Source: Meghimatium bilineatum
Lineage: Eukaryota > Mollusca > Gastropoda > Stylommatophora > Philomycidae
DNA length: 64,000 nt
Reading direction: 5' to 3'
Assembly (NCBI GenBank): GCA_034231615.1
Contig: CM067319.1
Span: 4,895,501 to 4,959,500 of the forward strand
A model generated the notes under the pieces. It was not told the origin of the DNA and ran no database searches. It saw only the letters and a list, made by a program, of their open reading frames with translations. The translations under genes and the position numbers were made by a program. Positions 8,547 through 61,470 of the stretch are shown piece by piece. Every line of letters starts with the position of its first letter. Position 1 is the first letter of the stretch.

Positions 8547-8833
8547 TAACCGCCCGTGTGTTGCCGGGGCCAGAAAGGGGAGCAAAGAATAGCAACACTG
8601 TTTACCTTCCACGCATGTCGTAAAATGCGACTAAGGAGGTTATAGGATGGAGTTGGCTGTCCCATCCCATATAGGGTCAGTGACCCAAAGCCATGCTGAA
8701 GTCGGATGTCTCAGGCAGAAAGGCGCAGATATCGTAGCAATGCTGTAAACCATAACACAACGCATTCCGTTATCCGGACTACATCCTGCTAATCTGCAGG
8801 AGTTTGAGAACGAACGAAGAAGAAGAAAAAGAT
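8547..8833 (+). mobile_element. Family A SINE-like element (fullest copy)
   Basis: About 285 bp. Starts CCGCCCGTGTGTTGCC, then GCAAAGAATAGCAACACTG, TACCTTCCACGCATGTCG, GCGACTAAGGAGG, GCTGAAGTCGGATG, CGCATTCCGTTATCCGGAC, and ends GGAGTTTGAGAACGAACGAA plus (GAA)n. A 7-bp direct repeat (AAAAGAT) flanks it but is weak evidence in A-rich DNA. No tRNA-like promoter was seen, so it is a SINE by structure and tail only. Confidence 0.75.
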
Positions 8834-15334: not shown

Positions 15335-15342
15335 CCCCAAGA

Positions 15343-15492
15343 CCGCCGAAGACGGATGTGTCGGCCATTGGCGCAAATAAAACGGCGACACAACGCATTT
15401 CCATTCTCTGGGCTATATCCTTCTGGAAATCTAATCGAATCAAGAGATATCCAGTGGGAGTTTGAGAATGAACGATGAAGAAGAAGAAGATG
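15343..15492 (+). mobile_element. Family B SINE-like element with target duplication
   Basis: 150 bp. Starts CCGCCGAAGACGGATGTGTC, then CCATTGGCGCAAATAAAACG, and ends GGGAGTTTGAGAATGAACG plus (GAA)n. A perfect 8-bp duplication CCCCAAGA flanks it (15335-15342 and 15493-15500), showing retroposition. Confidence 0.9.
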
Positions 15493-29373: not shown

Positions 29374-29690
29374 ATGCCGGGACCTGGAAATGTAGCAACA
29401 TATAGCAATACTGTGACCTGTCAGGGAAAAACATATAGCAATACGGTGACCTGTCATGGAAAATCATATAGCAATACGGTGAACTGTCATGGAAAACCAT
29501 ATAGCAATACTGTGACCTGTCATGCATGTAGTAAGAAGCTACTAATGAGGTTTATAGGTGGAGATGACTGTTCAATTCCGTAAGTTAAAGAGACGCAAAT
29601 TTTCGTCCAAAACTATTAGAAATCGCAGCCACACTGTTAACTATGATACAAAGCATTTACTTCATGCTACATGTGCTACTTGACTCTAGC
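29374..29690 (+). mobile_element. Family A SINE-like element with internal expansion
   Basis: The left part ATGCCGGGACCTGGAAATG and the right part CATGCATGTAGTAAGAAGCT, ACTAATGAGGTTTATAGGTG, then AAATCGCAGCCACACTGTTA match family A in order. Between them the family's AGCAACACTGTTACC...CATG segment has grown into a tandem array. Confidence 0.75.
29398..29523. repeat. 33-bp tandem repeat inside family A element, about 4 copies
   Basis: The unit contains CATATAGCAATACGGTGACC and TGTCATGGAAAA. Its start equals the family A segment AATAGCAACACTG-TTACCTTCCA, so the unit was made from the host element. Confidence 0.85.
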
Positions 29691-37689: not shown

Positions 37690-37855
37690 ATATTCTGTAA
37701 GGAAGAAGAAGGAAAGAAGAAGACGAGGAGGAAAGAAGAAGACGAGGAGGATGGAAGAAGACGAGGTGGAAAGAAGAAGACATGGCTCGATAATATCAAA
37801 GATTGGATAGGGTGTAAAGTTTCCAAACTCATTTAGGATGGCAGAGGCTTTTAAT
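37690..37855 (+). mobile_element. RTE-like LINE 3' scrap with purine-rich repeats
   Basis: After repeated GAAGACGAGGAGGAAAGAA phrases, one frame reads TWLDNIKDWIGCKVSKLI, matching the WTDNIKEWTGLDISTLI segment of RTE-A. Confidence 0.65.
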
Positions 37856-42845: not shown

Positions 42846-43074
42846 AACACATGGGGGACAAAGCACTTTTCTGTGGACCACACAGAAAAAAATTGAATTT
42901 TTGGTGCCACGAACCTACGCAAGCGAAGATGAGGTAGAACAAAAAACAACAACATTTGTGATTGTCTAATTTCGTTTATGAGTTAGTAGATTCCCGATGA
43001 GTCCGATTATTTGGATAGTAAATAATCAAGTATAAAATGATGTCTCCAAGAAGGTTGAGAAGATTTTTACTTTA

Positions 43075-43716
43075 GGTTCCAGGGACACCACTAAACAAAT
43101 TAATGTGATTCTAGGTTTCAGGGACACCACTAAACAAATTAATGTGATTCTAGGTTCCAGGGACACCACTAAACAAATTAATGTGATTCTAGGTTCCAGG
43201 GACACCACTAAAGAAATTAATGTGATTCTAGGTTCCAGGGACACCACTAAACAAATTAATGTGATTCTAGGTTCCAGGGACACCACTAAACAAATTAATG
43301 TGATTCTAGGTTCCAGGGACACCACTAAACAAATTAATGTGATTCTAGGTTCCAGGGACACCACTAAACAAATTAATGTGATTCTAGGTTCCAGGGACAC
43401 CACTAAACAAATTAATGTGATTCTAGGTTCCAGGGACACCACTAAACAAATTAATGTGATTCTAGGTTCCAGGGACACCACTAAACAAATTAATGTGATT
43501 CTAGGTTCCAGGGACACCACTAAACAAATTAATGTGATTCTAGGTTCCAGGGACACCACTAAACAAATTAATGTGATTCTAGGTTCCAGGGACACCACTA
43601 AACAAATTAATGTGATTCTAGGTTCCAGGGACACCACTAAACAGATTAATGTGATTCTAGGTTCCAGGGACACCACTAAACAAATTAATGTGATTCTAGG
43701 TTCCAGGGACACCACT
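43075..43716. repeat. 39-bp minisatellite, left part, about 16.5 copies
   Basis: Units contain GGTTCCAGGGACACCACTAA and ACAAATTAATGTGATTCTA with very few differences. The array is interrupted at 43716 by a LINE and resumes at 46752 in the same orientation. Because 39 is a multiple of 3, frames stay open on both strands; these are not genes. Confidence 0.97.
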
Positions 43717-46715: not shown

Positions 46716-46751
46716 ACATGTTTCAAGTGAACGAAAGAAGAAGAAGAAGAA
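43717..46751 (+). mobile_element. Jockey-like LINE, 5'-truncated, inserted in the 39-bp minisatellite
   Basis: A 3.0-kb insertion bounded by a perfect 11-bp duplication GGGACACCACT (43706-43716 and 46752-46762), which is part of the minisatellite unit. The 5' end is cut just after the endonuclease, and the 3' end is a short UTR with ACGAAAGAAGAAG and (GAA)n. The high coding quality and exact junctions suggest a young insertion. Confidence 0.95.
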
Positions 46752-47093
46752 GGGACACCACTAAACAAATTAATGTGATTCTAGGTTCCAGGGACACCAC
46801 TAAACAAATTAATGTGATTCTAGGTTCCAGGGACACCACTAAACAAATTAATGTGATTCTAGGTTCCAGGGACACCACTAAACAAATTAATGTGATTCTA
46901 GGTTCCAGGGACACCACTAAACAAATTAATGTGATTCTAGGTTCCAAGGACACCACTAAACAAATTAATGTGATTCTAGGTTCCAGGGACACCACTAAAC
47001 AAATTAATGTGATTCTAGGTTCCAGGGACACCACTAAACAAATTAATGTGATTCTAGGTTCCAGGGACATCACTAAACAAATTAATGTGATTC
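46752..47093. repeat. 39-bp minisatellite, right part, about 8.8 copies
   Basis: Continuation of the array at 43075-43716 on the far side of the LINE, starting with the repeated target GGGACACCACT and ending at ATGTGATTCG. Confidence 0.97.
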
Positions 47094-49019: not shown

Positions 49020-49750
49020 TATGGTATGTGAATATATTAGTCTTTGACTGGTTTCGTCTTGGAGAGATAGAATTGATTGTCTTTGAATGGATTCTCCGCC
49101 GAAGACGAATGTGTCGGGCCATTGGCGCAAATAAAACGGCGACACAGCGCATTTCCATTCTCGGGACTACATCCTGCGGGAAATCTAATAGGACCATGGT
49201 CCTGCTACAAGAGAGATCCAACGGGAGTTTGAGAATGAGCACTGAAGAAGAAGAAGAATGGATTCGTCTTGAAGAAATAGTAATGATTGTCGTTGAATGG
49301 ATTAATCTTGGAGAGATGTTGTTGATTGCTATCCCCAGGAACGGCGAGCATCATGATCTTACTTCCTATGTGCAGTCAGATGGGTTGTCTGAGCTTTGTT
49401 TCCATACACAGGAGATGTCAGCTTTCGGCTTAGTGCAATCTCTCTTGATGAAGAATTCATCTTGGAGAGATAGAAGGTGTTTTCTTTGAATATATTAATC
49501 TTGGAGAAAAATAAATGATGGTCTTTATATAGATTAATCATAGGGGCCGAAACTATGGTTTTTGAATAGATTAATCATAGGGACCGAAACTATGGTTTTT
49601 GAATAGATTAATCATAGGGACCGAAACTATGGTTTTTGAATAGATTAATCATAGGGACCGAAACTATGGTTTTTGAATAGATTAATAATAGGGACCGAAA
49701 CTATGGTTTTTGAATAGATTAATCATAGGGAGATAGAAATGATGGTCTTT
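49020..49750. repeat. Degenerate ~37-bp tandem array
   Basis: The left part repeats GGATTAATCTTGGAGAGATA and TTGATTGTCTTTGAAT loosely; the right part (49536-49735) is regular, with AATCATAGGGACCGAAACTA and TGGTTTTTGAATAGATT. A family B element interrupts it at 49094-49255. Confidence 0.8.
49094..49255 (+). mobile_element. Family B SINE-like element with target duplication (fullest copy)
   Basis: 162 bp: CTCCGCCGAAGACGAATGTG, CCATTGGCGCAAATAAAACG, GGACTACATCCTGC, AGGACCATGGTCCTGCTAC, GGGAGTTTGAGAATGAGCAC and (GAA)n. A perfect 9-bp duplication GAATGGATT flanks it (49085-49093 and 49256-49264). Confidence 0.93.
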
Positions 49751-50284: not shown

Positions 50285-50445
50285 CTCACCGAAGACGGAT
50301 GTGTGGGCCATTGGCGCAAATAACAGGGAAACACATCGCATTTCCAATCTCTGGTCAAAATCCAACTGGAAATCTAATAAGACCATTATACCGTTACAAG
50401 AGTGATCCAGCGGGAGTTTGAGAATAAACTCCGAAGTTAAAGAAG
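50285..50445 (+). mobile_element. Family B SINE-like element with target duplication
   Basis: CTCACCGAAGACGGATGTG to GGGAGTTTGAGAATAAACTC and AAGAAG. A perfect 12-bp duplication ATATAACATTAT flanks it (50273-50284 and 50446-50457). Confidence 0.93.
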
Positions 50446-55269: not shown

Positions 55270-55705
55270 TCTGCTACGCTCGGGTGTTCCCGGAACCCGA
55301 AAGGGAAGCAAAGAATATTAACACTGTATACTTTCCATGCATATCGTAAGAGACGAATGAGGAGGTTATGGGGCGGAGTTGGCTGCTCGATTTCATGTAG
55401 GGTTAAATGGGACCCAGAACATATGCTAAGGTTGGATGCGTCAGATCAAAGTATGCAGATATCGCAGCTAAGCTGTAAACCATGACACAACGCATTCTGT
55501 TCTCCAGACTATCTATCTATCTATGTGACGTAAATTTTACAGAACGTTGCCCTCACTGCCACACTGTAAGTCTCTCGGTTCTGTGCAAACTTCTCAGCCT
55601 CTCCCAATATCATCTTCAGAAGGTTCAAGACTACATCCTGCTAATCTACAGGAGTTTGAGAACATTCTCCAGACTACATCCTGCTAATCTACAGGAGTTT
55701 GAGAA
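55270..55705 (+). mobile_element. Family A SINE-like element, interrupted and partly duplicated
   Basis: GGGTGTTCCCGGAACCCGAA, GCAAAGAATATTAACACTG, GCAGATATCGCAGC and ACACAACGCATTCTGTTCTC follow family A. After a ~120-bp insertion beginning at TATCTATCTATG (55509), the tail GACTACATCCTGCTAATCTA plus CAGGAGTTTGAGAA appears twice. Confidence 0.75.
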
Positions 55706-55868
55706 TTCACGCAGACGAGGTACCTGCTAGAATTCACGCAGACGAGGTACCTGCTAGAATTCACGCAGACGAGGTACCTGCTAGAATTCACGCAGACGAG
55801 GTACCTGCTAGAATTCACGCAGACGAGGTACCTGCTAGAATTCACGCAGAAGAGGTACCTGCTAGAAT
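55702..55868. repeat. Minisatellite, 27-bp unit, about 6 copies
   Basis: GAATTCACGCAGACGAGGTA plus CCTGCTA. It starts exactly in the tail of the family A element (GAGTTTGAGAATTC). Confidence 0.95.
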
Positions 55869-55895
55869 CCACACACACACACACACACACACAGA
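55869..55895. repeat. (CA)n microsatellite
   Basis: Pure CA run next to the 27-bp array. Confidence 0.9.
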
Positions 55896-59934: not shown

Positions 59935-61470
59935 TTCGTGCTTTAAAAGAAATATAGCCACACTGTCACCTTCCTTGCATGTCACCTTCCCTGCATGTCA
60001 CCTTCCGTGCATGTCACCTTTCCTTCAGGTCAACTTCCCTGCATGCCACCATCCCTTCATGTCACCTTCTCTTCATGTCACCTTTCCTTCAGGTCAACTT
60101 CCCTGCATGCCACCATCCCTTCATGTCACCTTCTCTTCATGTCACATTTCCTTCACGTCACCTTCCTTGCATGCCAACTTTCCTGCATGACACCTTCCCT
60201 TCATGTCACCTTCCCTTCATGTATTCTTCCCTTCATGTATTCTTCCCTTTATGTCACCTTCGCTACATGCCACCTTCCCTTCATGTCACCTTCCCTGCAT
60301 GTCATCTTCCCTACATGTCACCTTCCCTTCATGTCACCTTCTCTGCATGTCATCTTCCTACATGTCAACTTCCATGTAAGTCATCCTTCCTTCATGTCAC
60401 ATTCCCTGCACGTCCCCTTCCCTTTATGTCACCTTCCATGCATGTCTCCTCCCCTTCATGTCAACATCCCTGCATGTCACCTTCCCTACATGTCACCTTC
60501 TCTGTATATCATCTTCCCTTGATGTCCCCTTCCCTTCGGGTCACATTCTCTGCATGTCCCTTTCCCTTCATGTCACCTTCCGTGCATGTCACCTTTCCTT
60601 CATGTCAACTTCCCTGCATGCCACCGTCCCTTCACGTCACCTTCCCTTTATGTCACCTTCCTTGCATGCCAACTTTCCTGCATGACATCTTCCCTTCATG
60701 TATTCTTCCCTTATGTTACCTTCCCTTTATGTCACCTTCGCTACATGTCACCTTCCCTTCATGTCACCTTCCCTTCATGTCACCTTCCCTTTATGTCACC
60801 TTCTAAGCATACCATATTTCCTTCATGTCATCTTTTCTGCATGTCACCTTCACTGTATGCCACCTTCCATTCATGTAATCTTCCTTGCATTTCACCTTCC
60901 TTCATGTCACCATATCTGCATGTCACCTTCCCTTCATGGCACCTTCCTACATGTCACCTTCCCTGTATGTCACCTTCCCTGTATGTCACCTTCCCTTCAT
61001 GTCACCTTCCCTTCATGTCACCTTCCCTACATGTCACCTTCCCTACATGTCACCTTCCCTTCATGTCCCCTTCCCTACATGTCACCTTCCCTTCATGTCC
61101 CCTTCCCTTTATGTCCCCTTCCCTTCGGGTCACATTCTATGCATGTCCCTTTCCCGTCATGTCATCTTCCCTTCATGTTCCCTTTGCTTCTTGTCATCTT
61201 CCCTGCATGTCCCTTCCCTTCATGTCACCTTCTCTGTATGTCATCTTCCCCTCATGTCACCTTCCCATCATGTGGTAAGAGGCGACTAAGGAGACTTATG
61301 AGAATGGAGTTGGTTGTCCCGTCTCATAAAGGATCAAAGTGCTACATAAGACATTATGTAGTCGGGTGTGTCGGTTCCGTAAGCGCATATATCGCAGTCA
61401 AGCTGTAACCCCAAGCAAAATGCATTCCGTTCTTTAGACTGAATACTACTAATCTGCAGGGGCTTACTGG
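59935..61470 (+). mobile_element. Family A SINE-like element split by a 1.3-kb internal expansion
   Basis: The left flank AGAAATATAGCCACACTG-TCACCTTCC corresponds to AGAATAGCAACACTG-TTTACCTTCC of family A. The right flank CATGTGGTAAGAGGCGACTA, AGGAGACTTATG, then ATATATCGCAGTCAAGCTG, GCATTCCGTTCTTTAGACT and CTAATCTGCAGGGG is the rest of the family. The array sits exactly between. Confidence 0.8.
59965..61272. repeat. 16-bp minisatellite made from family A, about 80 copies
   Basis: The unit is CACCTTCCCTTCATGT with variants (CTGCAT, CTACAT, CTTTAT, AACTTCC). It corresponds to TTACCTTCCACGCATGTCG in family A. 16 bp is not a multiple of 3, so all three plus frames stay open for several hundred bp; these are not genes. 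Confidence 0.95.

Follow-up and report, generated by a model that had tools for sequence, protein, structure and literature searches.

Minisatellites born from segments of SINEs have already been described, and the array reported here is a clear, well-preserved further example. Ahmed and Liang (2012; PMC3389668) describe human tandem repeats derived from transposable elements (TEs) as having arisen from part of a single TE copy, either upon insertion or later, and as expanding over time via local duplication of the unit. By those authors' count, 23% of human minisatellites and satellites are TE-derived, and the mechanisms postulated for the first duplication step account for just 6% of TE-derived repeats (PMC3389668). 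For minisatellites derived from Alu and B1, the Haber-Louis model, as outlined in PMC6947457, involves flanking direct repeats of 5–10 bp. For the limpet Patella caerulea, PMC11121367 describes PcH-sat, a satellite that includes 118 bp of Nin-SINE in each monomer and that sits pericentromerically on five of nine chromosome pairs.

Here we describe a locus-specific minisatellite of 82 units of 16 bp, located in the window (the whole stretch of DNA that was analysed, 64,000 nucleotides), that was very probably born inside a copy of a SINE-like element. Like the human repeats in the account of PMC3389668, it would have come from a stretch of a single TE copy by local duplication; unlike them, it lies in another genome, of 1.61 Gb, derives from a SINE of that genome's own, comprises 82 units of 16 bp, and has a putative priming repeat of 3–4 bp. 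As in the Alu and B1 minisatellites of PMC6947457, a SINE segment between short direct repeats would have become the unit, but the flanking repeat is 3–4 bp long rather than the 5–10 bp of the Haber-Louis model outlined there, and we count this against the proposed origin. Like PcH-sat as presented in PMC11121367, the array is a tandem repeat that includes part of a SINE; unlike PcH-sat, it occupies one locus and has a 16-bp unit.

The Host Element

A 17-mer from the right flank of the array has 4,132 exact matches in the 1.61-Gb genome, whereas the reversed control has 0. Twenty 10-kb stretches, representing 20 of the first 100 listed sites of this 17-mer and all on contig C1, were combined with two window copies, and a host consensus of 278 bp was derived from the resulting 22 copies. 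This consensus has the 5′ start GCCCGTGTG and a 3′ tail of (GAA)n. Its length (approximately 278 bp), start, and tail are those of a SINE, which is a short non-coding element with a constant 5′ end and a simple-repeat 3′ tail. Among the 22 full-length copies, 8 had a best flank repeat score of at least 9, compared to 1.3% of mismatched flank pairs. The presence of such target-site duplications around full-length copies therefore identifies the element as a SINE-like retroelement.

A profile made from 15 of the 22 aligned copies was used to search the window and 18 stretches (L031 and L033 were excluded as duplicates of L030 and L032) and returned 92 matches. Several of these cover the 3′ half alone (approximately positions 134–275; window 15336–15484, 37544–37407, 49097–49251, and 50285–50437) and perhaps represent a second SINE family with a common 3′ half.

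With regard to a pol III-type head (tRNA, 7SL, or 5S), no SINE copy in the window matched Rfam at gathering score; the one Rfam match in the window is a tRNA-Leu gene (1576–1657). The core 15-mer GTAAGAGGCGACTAA returned zero matches in a literature text search, no name for the host SINE was found in the literature searched, and a 20-mer of the family had 0 matches among viral contigs. Sequences similar to the host SINE presumably occur in molluscs.

Structure of the Array

TRF delimited the array at 59964–61273 with a period of 16, 82.2 copies, 77% matches, and a score of 1407, and splitting it unit by unit yielded 82 sixteen-base units (Table 1), located in the genome at G000:C22:4955468–4956774. 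The preliminary description had placed approximately 80 copies of a 16-bp unit, or about 1.3 kb, within positions 59935–61470; both the size and the span agree with our results, since the SINE remnants on the two sides run from approximately 59946/59951 to 61465. With 82 copies of a 16-bp unit, the array is a minisatellite in the usual sense of many tandem units of approximately 10–100 bp. There are 57 distinct sequences among the 82 units, with a mean identity to the array consensus of 86.8% and a mean pairwise identity of 77.9%. Pyrimidines make up 76% of the + strand of the array.

Table 1. Coordinates of the array, its flanks, and related SINE copies in the window.
Feature	Position	Strand	Basis
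Left SINE remnant, consensus 33–50, ends CACTGTC at array	59946..59967	+	Alignment, profile
82 tandem 16-bp units, phase ACCTTCCNNNCATGTC = SINE consensus 53–68	59968..61274	+	TRF, unit parse
Perfect 64-bp block duplication, four units (60016–60079 = 60080–60143)	60016..60143	+	Unit list; exact 40-mers
Unit identical to SINE consensus 16-mer (16/16)	60431..60446	+	Unit parse; sole such unit
Right SINE remnant, consensus 69–254, 96.5 bits alone	61275..61465	+	Alignment, profile
Full-length reference SINE copy, site unexpanded	8552..8826	+	
SINE copy with 33-bp minisatellite (29397–29524), consensus approximately 33–62 by eye	29375..29663	+	TRF, profile

Unit Identity and Junctions

The array splits an old, diverged copy of the dispersed element between consensus positions 52 and 69, and the array unit corresponds to consensus positions 53–68, ACCTTCCATGCATGTC. 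The majority base is the same as the SINE base in 14 of the 16 unit columns, and the three leftmost units, which are those nearest the left SINE remnant, are each identical to the SINE at 15 of 16 positions. To the right of the array, the flank carries the SINE on for approximately 190 bp. The left flank is weaker evidence because its match (59946–59966) spans just 18 consensus positions, and we count this shortness against birth in place; when the left flank is taken alone and compared with the full consensus, 2.1% of its shuffles do equally well.

Joining a single unit to both flanks gave a profile score of 128.4 bits and an alignment over positions 35–254. Decoy left flanks joined to the same unit and right flank had a median of 117.6 bits, and 8 of 1000 reached 128.4; these decoys were taken from the window, and some contain other SINE pieces. 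The gain from the true left flank over the decoy median is approximately 11 bits. At this diverged locus, neither the SINE ends nor a target-site duplication of the array-bearing copy was recognisable, a further point against birth in place.

The preliminary description had proposed that both flanks match one repeat family and that the unit equals the segment missing between them. In the consensus and alignment from the 22-copy sample, the segment is present at this place and the flanks continue the SINE on both sides, which upholds the proposal for the unit and for the right flank. The claim for the left flank stands for consensus positions 33–50 but does not extend to the first 32 positions, which are not recognisable there, and the junction, given earlier as AACACTG followed by ACCTTCC, is actually CACTGTC followed by ACCTTCC. 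The unit of the array is an internal TE segment with the TE on both sides, as in TE-derived minisatellites, with the left side represented by 18 positions.

Genome-Wide Occurrence and Alternative Origins

The unexpanded segment CTGTTTACCTTCCATGCATGTCGTAAGAGG occurs at 37,840 sites in the genome when up to three mismatches are allowed (reversed control, 0). By comparison, the two-unit 16-bp pattern of the array has 17 matches in 1.61 Gb at up to two mismatches, all of them inside the array (reversed control, 0), and the duplicated form of the SINE consensus in 16-bp phase has 0 genome matches at up to three mismatches. The confinement of the two-unit pattern to the array indicates growth in place, as had been proposed from the sequence alone: within the mismatch limits of these searches, the expanded form is found at a single locus, where it very probably arose with no spread by transposition.

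Across the DNA sampled, the site is covered by 42 profile rows, and 40 of them have a single segment; the other two are the exit of a 33-bp array at 29501 and a 10-bp non-repeat insertion. One further SINE copy (L029 2410–2944) is broken up by other sequence. Inside this interrupted copy lies an array (L029 2540–2713) whose unit, judged by eye, is not clearly SINE-derived.

An array that was already present in the SINE could have been carried here by retrotransposition, and cases of such carriage have been suggested in general, as for LTR12 in section 3.3 of PMC3389668. Here, however, the two-unit matches all belong to one array, there is no exact-phase duplication elsewhere at up to three mismatches, and a second SINE with a 16-bp array was not found, with the proviso that divergent arrays past the mismatch limits may have escaped. 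We consider carriage very improbable.

Slightly less probable still is that the SINE jumped into or beside a pre-existing 16-bp minisatellite whose unit resembles the element by chance. Minisatellites are dense in this genomic setting, with loci of period at least 10 numbering 173 and covering 42.5 kb, or 16% of 264 kb (the window plus L026–L045, with the duplicate stretches L031 and L033 counted in), and some of them lie near SINE ends. Moreover, the likeness of the array's unit to the whole SINE consensus (z = 4.0) ranks just 4th of 168 by shuffle z-score, in a ranking of arrays with units of up to 120 bp from which 5 of the 173, with longer units, were excluded. It is therefore position, and not unit score, that carries the case. 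The array divides the SINE, its unit is exactly the segment expected, the flanks stop at positions 50 and 69, and the consensus contains the segment at the array position, whereas insertion of the SINE into an array would place array sequence outside the element rather than in its middle. Ranks 2 and 3 in unit likeness to the SINE are held by arrays at L028 5233 and L036 3034.

That the array encodes protein as a repetitive exon, as its stop-free + strand frames of 282 and 251 aa might suggest, is hardly credible. With a stop-free unit, the + strand frame stays open by chance, column-shuffled arrays have an equal or longer stop-free run in 76.8% of 500 trials, the period of 16 is not divisible by 3, and in the unit-by-unit parse some of the units are short by one base. 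No function is needed for the array.

A Model for the First Duplication and Later Growth

For the array as a minisatellite born inside the SINE copy, we infer that the first step combined a priming direct repeat with slippage. The old SINE copy would have carried TGTY-ACCTTCCATGCA-TGTC, in which TGTY and TGTC form a direct repeat of 3–4 bp one unit apart, and slippage or unequal exchange between these two short repeats may have generated the first 16-bp duplication. Growth from two units to 82 could then have proceeded by more slippage together with unequal exchange or gene conversion, via repeated block duplications.

TGTC occurs both at the junction on the left and where the unit ends; the SINE consensus has just TGT in common, and it reads TGTTT where the array locus reads TGTC, which we count against the model. 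Likewise against the model, no exact direct repeat of at least 4 bp is present in the consensus at the array site and spacing, and such repeats are not enriched there (19 versus a shuffled mean of 22.4). Lower-scoring SINE copies, which are probably older because of their lower scores, commonly lack one T ahead of ACC, giving a 16-bp spacing from TGT to TGTC.

With regard to later growth, the array contains repeated exact 40-mers (60010/60074, 60745/60983, and 61037/61069), and the 64-bp block duplication (Table 1) is a recent multi-unit exchange. Runs of at least four like units at a fixed lag number 34, whereas 300 permutations of unit order give 9.5 on average and never more than 30. These internal block duplications fit later expansion through exchanges of several units at once. 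Counting against it, no run of like units is longer than 9, a length that permutation also yields (mean 5.4, maximum 10). The array may be polymorphic in copy number at present.

Other Expansions of the Same Segment

A gapped pattern, in which an exact 14-mer is repeated within 12 bases, was applied at the array's SINE segment and identified 2 loci with 26 matches. At C16:26037811 (L046), a 17-bp unit is repeated (TRF, 5.8 copies; approximately seven by eye, the outer ones degenerate), with SINE positions 38–50 at left and the SINE running on to position 268 at right (147.7 bits). Both flanks joined to a single unit score 158.7 bits from position 38; the decoys have a median of 146.2, and 4 of 1000 match or exceed the real score. 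This locus on C16 is an independent case of a same-site array, caught small. At G000:C18:23924271–23925677 (L047 272–1678), a 24-bp unit extends over 1.4 kb (TRF, 58.6 copies) and matches SINE consensus 52–75 at 22 of 24 positions; of 50 profile rows (E ≤ 1) in the 1,751 bases examined, none extends past positions 45–80, and no further part of the SINE was found in these bases. The window copy with a 33-bp minisatellite (Table 1) scores 65.4 bits in its one-unit form, versus 59.4 and 9.5 bits as it stands. Four loci expand the SINE segment, in four registers of 16, 17, 24, and 33 bp.

The segment TTTACCTTCCATGCATGTCGTAAGAG holds the sole 8-bp palindrome of the SINE consensus, CATGCATG. We nevertheless regard it as doubtful that this segment acts as a recurrent source of minisatellites through breakage or slippage; if it did, tens of thousands of SINE copies would provide a natural replicate experiment on minisatellite starts. 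A control SINE segment, CATGACACAACGCA, queried with the same form of pattern, also yielded 2 loci, with 2 matches, and we therefore do not claim a tandem-duplication hotspot on the basis of 2 loci versus 2, counts that are not normalised to single 14-mers. The duplicated loci at the control segment indicate that tandem duplications occasionally start within the SINE.

It is rarely easy to trace a minisatellite back to the single-copy sequence from which it came. In the present case, tens of thousands of unexpanded copies reveal that ancestor, and expansions of one SINE segment, both small and large, coexist in the genome, which makes the first duplication step countable.

Minisatellites at SINE Ends

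Of 64 SINE 3′ ends, 2 have an array within 15 bp, 6 within 40 bp, and 13 within 100 bp, compared to 1.1%, 3.2%, and 7.5% of random points, respectively; for SINE 5′ ends the corresponding counts are 1, 1, and 4 of 35. Two of the six 3′ matches within 40 bp lie in L041 and seem to represent a single site that was duplicated. This mild excess is suggestive of minisatellites being seeded at SINE 3′ ends. Several of the 3′ matches, however, are incomplete and may come from a second SINE with the 3′ half in common.

Arrays at L028 5230–5447 and L042 3644–4239 start 2 and 10 bases past a SINE 3′ end. At window positions 55624–55872, a SINE 3′ end is doubled as a 43-bp unit and is followed directly by a 27-bp array, and at L029 2847–3041 an internal 101-bp SINE piece is in tandem (1.9 copies, 97% matches). 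Two window arrays that lie 3 kb apart (43073–43716 and 46751–47093) have the same 39-bp unit in different rotation.
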